From Campylobacterales bacterium (GTDB taxonomy: Bacteria > Campylobacterota > Campylobacteria > Campylobacterales > Sulfurovaceae), in assembly GCA_014763895.1 (NCBI GenBank), contig JACXUM010000002.1, positions 1 to 64,000 on the forward strand: a stretch of DNA of 64,000 bases, given 5' to 3'. Each line of letters opens with the position of its first letter. The stretch's first letter is position 1. The notes under the pieces were generated by a model, which worked only from the letters and a program-made list of their open reading frames with translations, searched no databases and had not been told where the DNA came from. The position numbers and the translations under genes were made by a program. Below are positions 4,577 to 40,067 of this stretch, piece by piece.

Positions 4577-4963
4577 TATGAACATATCGAGTACACTGAC
4601 GGAAGCTATGATGAGAAACAGCTCATTTACGCCAACGGCAAAGTAGTAGCGATCAACACCGACCACTACGAAGCCCATGACGCCACACTAGCAACCCCAA
4701 GCATCCGCTACCTCCACTATGATGCATTAGGAAGCGTAGACACCATCACCGACAATAAAGGAACGGTACTTGAAAGACGTCCCTACAAACCGTTCGGAGA
4801 AGAACTGGAGGTCTATAAAGACCCCGATGCAGGCTTTACGACCAACAGAGGGTTCACAGGCCATGAGCATATCGAAGGGACCAGGCTCATCCATAGTGAG
4901 AAGCGTTTAGCTTCGAACGCAAAGCTGTATGATCCGATGATTCGATATAGGGTAGGTGGTTAA
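4577..4963 (+). pseudogene. RHS-repeat-associated core domain fragment
   Basis: Open frame without a start, absent from the ORF list: YEHIEYTDGSYDEKQLIYANGKVVAINTDHYEAHDATLATPSIRYLHYDALGSVDTITDNKGTVLERRPYKPFGEELEVYKDPDAGFTTNRGFTGHEHIEGTRLIHSEKRLASNAKLYDPMIRYRVGG*; YLHYDALGSV, PFGE and GFTGHEHI...YDP are RHS-core hallmarks. Confidence 0.88.
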
Positions 4964-5151
4964 TGCTTGAAATTGGGCTGTATCTACGGGTATAGCCAAT
5001 GAGATAGAGATAGGAACAAGCACATTGTAAAAGTCTGTACTACCGAACTCTAACTATATAAAGTGTAGAATTAGCCCATTTATATCGTATTTTTTGAACA
5101 AAATATGATTAAGTTTATCGGATATTGAATATCACAAAAAGGGAAAAGAGA

Positions 5152-6015
5152 ATGTTGTACTATTATGCGTATAGCGGACATAAGATCGGTTTGGACAGAG
5201 TCAAACGTGCAGCGGCATTGTTAAAACAATTTCAGGCGCAAGGGATCGAGACGAGATTATTGGTCAATGATTTTCGGGCAGGATTGGCGGCTAAAGAGTT
5301 TGGGGTCAGGGATTCTGTGACGATCGAAACGATACAGGATATCGATGCGATGGCCCAGATAGGAGATAGCATTATCATCGATTCTCCGGAAGATGATCAT
5401 GGAAGACTGCAGAAATACTGTGTTGAATATAAGGCGGTGTTCCGTTTTGCCCAGAATAAAGAGGATGAGTCCTGTTATGGGGAAACCATGCTCAAGATGA
5501 ATTGTGAAGATGACGCCTGTCTGCCTTCGGTGATTATTGATGATATCTATTTCGAACCGGCCCCCAAAGAGGAGCGAACGCTGTTTTTTTTAGGGGATGC
5601 CGATTATGACAAAGTGCTTCTTTCACAAAAAGCTTTTTTTGCGGACAATCCCATGGAATTGCTTTTAGGGCACTATTTTTTTGTCAAATATGAAGATGAA
5701 CTATCCCGGATGTTTACCAAGCTGCATGAGGCAGAAGAGTATACCGATCTGATCCGAAGTTCAAGCCATATTGTAACTGCATCTGCACAAACAGCATTGG
5801 AAGCCAAAGCAAGCGGAGCGGATGTGGTTTTTATCAGACTTGATACAAGCGATCCAGAATTATCGGAGTATTTAACTCTTAAAAACATCAGCATAATTGA
5901 TGGTTTTGACATTCAAGCCTATCAAAAAATTCAAGAGGCGAATACCCAGAAAGCCGATTTGCCACAAAATGGTTCTGCTATCGCAAAAAAAATTATAAAT
6001 ACGATAAGTTTTTAA
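5152..6015 (+). CDS. conserved hypothetical protein, possible glycosyltransferase-B/PseG-like fold
   Basis: ~287-aa ORF beginning MLYYYAYSGHKIGLDRVKRAAALLKQF, with ITASAQTALEAKASGADVVFIR-like C-terminal motif (TASAQTALEAKASGADVVFI); just upstream of petABC. Confidence 0.6.
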   Translation: MLYYYAYSGHKIGLDRVKRAAALLKQFQAQGIETRLLVNDFRAGLAAKEFGVRDSVTIETIQDIDAMAQIGDSIIIDSPEDDHGRLQKYCVEYKAVFRFAQNKEDESCYGETMLKMNCEDDACLPSVIIDDIYFEPAPKEERTLFFLGDADYDKVLLSQKAFFADNPMELLLGHYFFVKYEDELSRMFTKLHEAEEYTDLIRSSSHIVTASAQTALEAKASGADVVFIRLDTSDPELSEYLTLKNISIIDGFDIQAYQKIQEANTQKADLPQNGSAIAKKIINTISF

Positions 6016-6064
6016 TAACAATACGCTTATAATAGGAAATTCAAAATTTTATAAAGGAAGAAGT

Positions 6065-6601
6065 ATGGGAAAAAACGTACGAGGTCGTAGAGACTTTATG
6101 GGTATGGCTCTTGGCGGTTTTACTGCATTGGGTGGACTTGGTGCACTCTATGCAATGAAACGCAGCTGGGATCCATTGCCAAGCGTTGCAGCTGCCGGGT
6201 TTACTACTATTGATCTGAGTGCTGCACAGGAGAATGTGCTGAATGTTGAGAAGTGGAGAGGGAAACCGATTTTTGTTTTAAAACAGTCAAAAGAGATGGT
6301 AAGCAAAGCATCGGAAGCAAGTCAAAAAAGATTGATTCAGGTGGGTGACGCATACTATATGGTCGCTGTGGGATTATGTACACATCTTGGTTGTATCCCT
6401 GGATATGATGCAGGTAATCAGAGCTTTTTATGTGCATGTCACGGAGGTACTTATGATAGTACAGCAGATGTGACAAAAGCACCGCCTCCAAGAGGTTTGG
6501 ATATTCCTCCGTTTAAAATTGACGGTATGAAGCTTGTACTGGGCGAAAAAGGGCCAGAGTATGAGAAAATGTTGGCCGATGGCATAACGATGCCGGTATA
6601 A
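6065..6601 (+). CDS. petA: ubiquinol-cytochrome c reductase iron-sulfur (Rieske) subunit
   Basis: CTHLGCIP and CACHGGTYD Rieske cluster motifs; N-terminal RRDFMG (Tat-like) plus hydrophobic segment. Confidence 0.97.
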   Translation: MGKNVRGRRDFMGMALGGFTALGGLGALYAMKRSWDPLPSVAAAGFTTIDLSAAQENVLNVEKWRGKPIFVLKQSKEMVSKASEASQKRLIQVGDAYYMVAVGLCTHLGCIPGYDAGNQSFLCACHGGTYDSTADVTKAPPPRGLDIPPFKIDGMKLVLGEKGPEYEKMLADGITMPV

Positions 6602-38500: not shown

Positions 38501-38647
38501 GCGTACTGGCTCTATTGATTTATATTTTTTAAGTGTTTGATTACGCTTTCATCTTTTGGAGTACGTTCATTTGCCTGAAGAGATTTATGGATAATAAAAA
38601 AGTTTTAACCTTATTCTAAAGGGTCTTTGCAAAACTAGTGACTTCTA

Positions 38648-38899
38648 TCAATAGATCTCTTTCCTATGGGCAACCCTGATCACAGTAATCACAAGCAGAT
38701 TATTTTCCTTTAGATAGACGATCCTATAATCACCTGCTCTTTTTCTAAACTTTCCTTTGTGTTTGCCTTGAAGTCCTTTATCACTAGAAAATTTTCCATT
38801 TTGAAGATCAATGATCTTTGAAGCTATTAACTCTTGAGCTGTTTTTGGCAATTTCAAAAACTCTTTTTCAGCACTGGGTTCAAAAGCAACCTTATACAC
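38648..38899 (-). CDS. RelE/ParE family toxin
   Basis: YKVAFEPSAEKEFLKLPKTAQELIASKIIDLQ...LQGKHKGKFRKRAGDYRIVYLKENNLLVITVIRVAHRKEIY; GTG start overlaps the antitoxin stop. Confidence 0.93.
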   Translation of the reverse strand: MYKVAFEPSAEKEFLKLPKTAQELIASKIIDLQNGKFSSDKGLQGKHKGKFRKRAGDYRIVYLKENNLLVITVIRVAHRKEIY

Positions 38900-39122
38900 C
38901 AATACCAGCCTTTGCAAATACATCTTCAAGTGACACCACGGTGGTTTTTCCACTCTTTAGATCATCTATTCTCTTATCTGCAACCATTTCATCAAGCTTA
39001 TCAAAATAAAGCTCTATGGACTTTTCTATAAGGCTCGTACGAGTTTTATCCAGCTCTTGTGCATATCCGTCTAAACTTTCAATCATCTCTTTTTCAAGAC
39101 GAATATTTATTGCTTGTTTCAT
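38892..39122 (-). CDS. ribbon-helix-helix antitoxin
   Basis: NIRLEKEMIESLDGYAQELDKTRTSLIEKSIELYFDKLDE, coupled to RelE-like gene. Confidence 0.88.
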   Translation of the reverse strand: MKQAINIRLEKEMIESLDGYAQELDKTRTSLIEKSIELYFDKLDEMVADKRIDDLKSGKTTVVSLEDVFAKAGIGV

Positions 39123-39142
39123 AACATATCCTTCATCTCATT

Positions 39143-39182
39143 TTGTATATACAATTGTAGTGCATCATAGATAATGTGTCAA
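39143..39182 (-). promoter_or_regulatory. TA promoter with overlapping palindromic operator
   Basis: On - strand: TTGACA (39182-39177), 17-bp spacer, TACAAT (39159-39154); adjacent perfect palindrome TTGTATATACAA (39143-39154). Confidence 0.65.
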
Positions 39183-39235
39183 GAGTTTAAGTCACTAATT
39201 TTGCGAAGAGCCCTTTAAAATTGCTATTAATTGTA

Positions 39236-39284: not shown

Positions 39285-39952
39285 TTAGAAGCGGTAACTC
39301 AAACCTACCATCAGCATGTGAGCATTGTATTCGATTTTCCCTGTATCAGGGTCATTGCTAGGATCTAGCTCCCATGTGTCATCTCCATAATCGGTATAGC
39401 GGTATTGGATACGTGCATGAAGATTTTCATTGATTTTCTTTTCTAACCCTGCTCCGATCGTCCATCCGGTAAGCGTATCATCATAGTGATCCTCGCTGCC
39501 CCAGCTTGTCCACCCATCACTTTTCCTGCTCGTAATCTTAGAGAAGCATCCCAATCTTGTTCAACTTTAGCTCCCCATTCTCCATCATCCTCTATGATAA
39601 TAGTATCATCCGCTGATAAGAAGTTGTATTCCCCTTCTACACCAATGAGGAAATCATTGTCAAGTTTCCAATTATAGCCTGCAAAGATACCACCTGCGAA
39701 TCCATCTACATCAAAACCGTTAAGAGTAAATACTCTATCATCATCTTCTGGATCCGCCCAATAAGCACTTGTATCTGCATTTCCTCAATTATATCCGGCT
39801 TGTAGTCCTACGTAAGGCCCGCTCCAGGAATCTACCGCAGGGACTTCTACTTCTACCGCAGGTTCAACAGGAGCGATATCGCCACCTGCCATTGCAAATG
39901 TTCCACTTGCGAGCATTCCTGAAACGACCATTGAAAAATTAAACTTTTTCAT
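39285..39952 (-). pseudogene. OmpA-like/opacity-type outer-membrane beta-barrel protein, disrupted
   Basis: Signal MKKFNFSMVVSGMLASGTFAMAG, WSGPYVGLQAGYN then in-frame TGA (39787-39785), GGIFAGYNWKLDNDFLIGVEGEYNF, then a frame change near 39,530-39,555, then GWTIGAGLEKKINENLHARIQYRYTDYGDD...MLMVGLSYRF. Confidence 0.82.
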
Positions 39953-40067
39953 TGTATTCTCCTTACTTTTTGAATTATTTATAAAATTATAAATAATAAT
40001 TATAGATAGGACTTACGGATCACTTTAGGTTTGTAAAGTTGGAGTTTAAAAGCAAAAGAAGCGGTAC

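Follow-up and report, generated by a model that had tools for sequence, protein, structure and literature searches.

How toxin-antitoxin (TA) pairs that are scattered over bacterial chromosomes spread is often unknown. A TA operon enclosed by inverted repeats in a Sulfurovum-group genome, within the 64,000-bp stretch of DNA analysed here (the window), raises the question of whether such a pair can itself be a mobile element and which enzyme would move it. The unit spans positions 38621–39212 (592 bp) and is free of a transposase gene. It is bounded by the left terminal inverted repeat GGGTCTTTGCAAAACTAGTGACTT (38621–38644, plus strand) and the right repeat GGCTCTTCGCAAAATTAGTGACTT, as read on the minus strand (39189–39212). 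In an ungapped alignment, the left repeat and the reverse complement of the right one (39212–39189) agree at 21 of 24 positions, the ends forming a 24-bp imperfect inverted repeat with three mismatches. The initial annotation had placed the repeats correctly, at 38618–38644 and 39189–39216, but the agreement of about 25 of 28 that it gave becomes 21 of 24 when no gaps are allowed, and its edges (38618–39216, 599 bp) were too wide, the true element lying 3 bp inside them. The outer AAA and the gap are assigned to the flanks because the ends of a second copy, in genome G064, and of a phage-borne relative, both described below, directly abut target duplications. Among arm pairs with at least 21 of 24 matches and an outer spacing of 300–1499 bp, that of the cassette stands alone in the 64-kb window, and three base shuffles of the window yielded no pair of that quality. 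A 21-base core pattern, searched with up to three mismatches, matches just the two cassette ends in the window, with a chance expectation of 0 matches in 100 shuffles. The spacing is as originally described, with the toxin stop codon 3 bp from the left repeat and the −35 box about 6 bp from the right one, and the unit consists of repeats, toxin, antitoxin and promoter alone; no transposase lies inside and nothing else would fit. The window genome (G000) holds a single copy.

Both genes of the cargo are encoded on the minus strand. The toxin gene (38648–38905) starts with GTG and codes for an 85-aa protein of the RelE/ParE fold, and the antitoxin gene (38892–39122), which it overlaps by 14 bp, codes for a 76-aa ribbon-helix-helix (RHH), RelB-like protein. 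The toxin matches the ParE_toxin profile PF05016 at 1.1e-8, above the cut-off, and the RelE_StbE model at 1.2e-5, just under the cut-off of that model; the solved structures most closely related to it are those of a toxin-like protein and of RelE chains. The antitoxin falls 0.4 bit below the cut-off of RHH_1 and reaches 2.2e-9 against a RelB-like model, yet this is also below the model cut-off. These matches agree with the RelE/RHH pair first proposed for the locus, the toxin having a RelE/ParE fold (PF05016) and the antitoxin RHH and RelB-like features, and the adjacency of toxin and RHH antitoxin in a single operon is that of a type II RelE/ParE-RHH system. A sigma-70-like promoter, TTGACA-17-TACAAT (39154–39182, minus strand; −35 box at 39182–39177), is predicted by consensus match only and scores 11 of 12. 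Beside its −10 box lies the palindrome TTGTATATACAA (39144–39155), which is invariant across the copies in the window, G064 and a third genome, G020, and which, judged from its sequence, may act as the RHH operator. Among the same three copies, pN/pS is 0–0.07 for the antitoxin and 0.05–0.35 for the toxin, values indicating that the TA pair is under coding constraint, as expected of working genes. Since TA homologues elsewhere in the genus (66–73% DNA identity) lack the cassette ends, a single capture of the pair between ends of the ISL3 type is probable. No relatives of the toxin were found in IMG/VR. The G020 pair (G020:C29; L048:4772–5318) is 92% identical, has no repeats and sits beside a tRNA-Arg gene; its left junction resembles a repeat that is mostly missing.

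Evidence of movement comes from the second full copy, on contig C144 of G064. This cassette is exactly 592 bp long, about 94% identical to the window unit without indels, and lies at an unrelated locus, between what we take, from their protein sequences, to be an L,D-transpeptidase gene and pdxH. A perfect 8-bp duplication (TATTTTTT/TATTTTTT) stands directly against both of its ends, a full match that is seen in just 3 of 20449 flank 8-mer pairs. Searches with the joined flanks found the locus uninterrupted and cassette-free in G020 and G077, which provides the pair of occupied and empty sites that the initial annotation had named as support for its reading. At the window locus, the cassette lies between a trypsin-like protease gene and an OMP gene; in G007 and G070 both flanking genes are retained, about 100 bp apart, without a cassette between them, and in G010 and G033 the OMP gene and the cassette are both missing. 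The intergenic stretches of the empty sites are too diverged for the pre-insertion 8-mer to be read. The window flanks themselves, ATTCTAAA (38613–38620) and CTTTAAAA (39213–39220), match at 5 of 8 positions, in keeping with the earlier remark that no clear target-site duplication is visible; as 4.2% of flank 8-mer pairs reach at least 5 of 8, the window duplication has either decayed or never existed. Movement is thus indicated in G064 by a duplication together with empty sites, and for the window copy by empty sites only. These two are the full cassette copies known, one per genome. The OMP-like gene adjoining the window cassette (39285–39960) appears broken, its longest ORF being 89 aa, and G007 and G070 hold sequence similar to it.

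Ends of the same type also enclose other cargo. A 9.6-kb phage contig in IMG/VR (IMGVR_UViG_3300033146_004786; L095) carries a 1525-bp element at 4921–6445 with the ends GGGTATTCGTAAAATAAGTGACT / GGCTCTTCGTAAAATTAGTGACT and, directly beside them, the 8-bp duplication AATTTTAT/AATTTTAT; the search for copies with different cargo that had been suggested for this locus was therefore successful. Its main ORF encodes a PAPS-reductase-like protein with a C-terminal DNA-binding region of the ISL3 transposase type (a zinc ribbon and an HTH; domains Zn_ribbon_ISL3 and HTH_Tnp_ISL3, transpos_ISL3 at 2.5e-14), a part that corresponds to the N-terminal domain of an ISL3 transposase and shares 47% identity with plasmid-borne ISL3 transposases. 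No related contig with an empty site was found for this element, and IMG/VR held no relatives of its cargo. That the ends are shared with phage-borne cargo suggests a simple phage-host route for such genes. A further unit with cassette-type ends, 1358 bp long and without a clear duplication, was found in G073 (C47; L064:628–1985) and contains two ORFs without firm family. About 550 bp past this unit, outside its repeats, a second PAPS-reductase/ISL3-domain gene (L064:2533–3900) lies in a phage-like region.

The suggestion in the initial annotation that the ends recall ISL3 termini holds when real ISL3 elements are compared: the tip and the duplication length fit them, and the inner half differs. 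An autonomous ISL3 insertion sequence of 1319 bp from the same genus (G065:C69; L050:961–2279) has the ends GGCTCTTCGTCGAAATGAGTGGGTA and an 8-bp AT-rich duplication, ATATTTAT, and the tip GGCTCTTCG is common to the cassette, this element and ISAtc2 (ends GGCTCTTCGACATTTT). On its left side, L095 has an end (GGGTATTCG) similar to those of a Vibrio harveyi ISL3 element (GGGTATGCGGATTAAATG, duplication 8/8) and the Enterococcus fosB3 element (GGGTAATCGGATTTTAGTG, duplication 8/8), and the right ends of L095 and the window cassette (GGCTCTTCG) resemble the G065 element and ISAtc2 (GGCTCTTCGACATTTTGAGTGGGTA, duplication 7/8). Overall, the cassette and G065 ends agree at 13 of 24 positions, a match equalled by 421 of 200000 random 24-mers, and they diverge past the first nine bases, the inner half being particular to the present set of elements. 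ISL3-like elements are known to generate 8-bp duplications (PMC5559704, PMC12554700); AT-rich ones of this length are present at the G064 copy (TATTTTTT), L095 (AATTTTAT) and the G065 element (ATATTTAT), the window copy having its 5-of-8 match. By sequence comparison, the cassette ends are assigned to the ISL3 type on three grounds: the tip, the length of the duplication and the presence of an ISL3 domain in the phage-borne relative.

No ISL3 transposase (PF01610) is encoded in the window genome, and hence the cassette is not itself an insertion sequence but has ISL3-type ends only. The end expected on a complete cognate element is GGCTCTTCGYAAAAYTARTSACTT. An insertion sequence with the same ends, which the initial annotation had named as possible support, did not turn up: no transposase gene associated with the full 24-bp end was found in 78 genomes of the genus, 175 of the family and 397 of the phylum, at up to three mismatches, GTDB representatives and IMG/VR scanned for exact matches gave none either, BLAST searches against PLSDB and INPHARED were likewise negative, and plasmid and phage records probed with a 30-base end gave chance matches only. 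Where the scan of 397 phylum genomes gave pattern matches beyond the genus, these fall within coding genes, with two in atpA, and were deemed chance; the extra matches of the family scan that were checked outside G015 and G064 likewise sit inside ORFs. For the ISL3 copies of G020 and G054, considered as a source of the ends, no matching ends were found.

We regard it as very probable that the unit is a non-autonomous ISL3-type mobile insertion cassette, the whole cargo of which is a type II TA operon. We propose that an ISL3-family transposase would be supplied in trans by an insertion sequence, plasmid or phage that transiently enters the cell, and that this enzyme would recognise the ends and place the unit into AT-rich sites; the cassette is thus probably mobilised by an enzyme borrowed from an ISL3-type element. 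By analogy with known TA addiction, the TA pair may aid retention of the cassette, penalising its loss and possibly offsetting the absence of a transposase of its own. A variant compatible with this explanation, unlikely on balance but worth serious consideration, is that the cassette is a relic that transposed in the past and is reached by no transposase now. The window target repeat of just 5 of 8, the three differences between the two ends and the absence of an ISL3 gene from the window genome would all fit such a relic, against which stand a unit length identical to that in G064 and ends that keep most of the shared positions.

The mover could instead belong to another family that makes duplications of about 8 bp, such as IS256, IS1595 or IS6. 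Transposases of IS256 and IS1595 are commoner in the genus than those of ISL3, and the window genome holds an intact IS256 copy. However, this attribution is improbable, given that the tip GGCTCTTCG is common to ISL3 elements, that the phage relative has an ISL3 DNA-binding domain and that the IS256 and IS1595 copies inspected have ends unlike those of the cassette; on the last ground these copies were rejected as the source of the ends. The intact IS256 transposase gene lies at G000:C39:27473–28579, and an IS256-type fragment with two stops is found in the window at 1961–2725. IS1595-type transposases of about 340–360 aa occur in Sulfurovum (L065–L069), and in at least three of these loci (L066, L068 and L069) the transposase gene is directly followed by a 154-aa ORF that is encoded on the other strand.

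Another reading takes the TA operon for an ordinary chromosomal one and the repeats for its terminator or a long RNA hairpin, and the two arms are indeed able to pair within a full-length single strand. Yet the operon promoter lies on the inner side of the right repeat, so that the transcript would not contain that arm, a terminator scan found nothing at the repeats, homologous TA operons have no repeats, and ends of the same type enclose different cargo beside 8-bp duplications. The initial annotation had itself named a conserved hairpin, or repeats occurring nowhere else with no empty site in any related genome, as grounds for abandoning the mobile element. The hairpin is contradicted by the existence of a second location and of target duplications, and we consider it very improbable. 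Movement by site-specific recombination, as for Acinetobacter dif modules, is hardly credible: inverted sites on a 28-bp scale that flank a TA pair lacking a recombinase do resemble the dif arrangement, but such recombination yields no target duplications, whereas the G064 and L095 elements show perfect 8-bp ones, and the insertion sites are unrelated and AT-rich.

The preferred reading, a mobile insertion cassette moved in trans, draws together kinds of element that are already known, namely the mobile insertion cassette and TA genes on transposons. Mobile insertion cassettes have IS-type ends and passenger genes but no transposase, and are presumed to be moved in trans (PMC3129680, PMC4133298). 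The unit described here shares these features, having inverted ends related to an IS family, intact passengers and no transposase, and differs from the known examples in its ISL3-type ends and in a TA operon as the entire cargo, a combination that was not found in the limited literature searched. The description as a MITE-like non-autonomous element stands as far as non-autonomy is concerned, but the unit is filled by intact cargo genes, which makes a mobile insertion cassette a better fit than a MITE. MITEs, which likewise have inverted ends and no transposase, are 50–500 bp long, mostly relic sequence and multicopy (PMC10969869, PMC4133298), whereas this cassette is single-copy in its genome and filled by two genes. 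The ISL3-like fosB transposons of Enterococcus have 25-bp GGGT..CG ends, 8-bp AT-rich duplications and cargo between the ends, as here, but differ in that an ISL3 transposase gene of their own follows the cargo. TA genes also ride on Tn3-family transposons (PMC7157771), and TIMEs are transposase-less elements mobilised in trans (PMC4133298); these systems resemble the cassette in transposon-borne TA genes and in the mobilisation in trans proposed for it, respectively, but the Tn3 systems have 38-bp ends, 5–6-bp duplications and TA genes within an element that has transposition genes. Acinetobacter pdif modules are comparable as small TA or resistance units between inverted sites with no recombinase of their own, but XerC/XerD move them by acting at specific sites, and no target duplication results.

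As a selfish mobile TA element, a TA pair with nothing but transposon ends is close to the minimum that seems plausible, and with the cassette one can ask directly whether addiction by itself favours the persistence of an element that has no transposase. Tentatively, and with considerable doubt, we suggest that transposase-less cassettes sharing one ISL3 end type may circulate in Sulfurovum and its phages, carrying mostly conflict genes (TA pairs, the PAPS-reductase-like protein with its ISL3 DNA-binding domain and perhaps Rhs toxin genes), with addiction replacing the transposase for persistence.

One-sided copies of the end sequence, possible element ends, were also observed, at G061:C28:24119, G033:C7:323, G064:C68:8247 and G015:C59:815. 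Those in G061, G033 and G064:C68 lie just upstream of large genes for Rhs/YD-repeat or Ig-like proteins, and additional leader sequence is common to the copies in G033, G064:C68 and G015.
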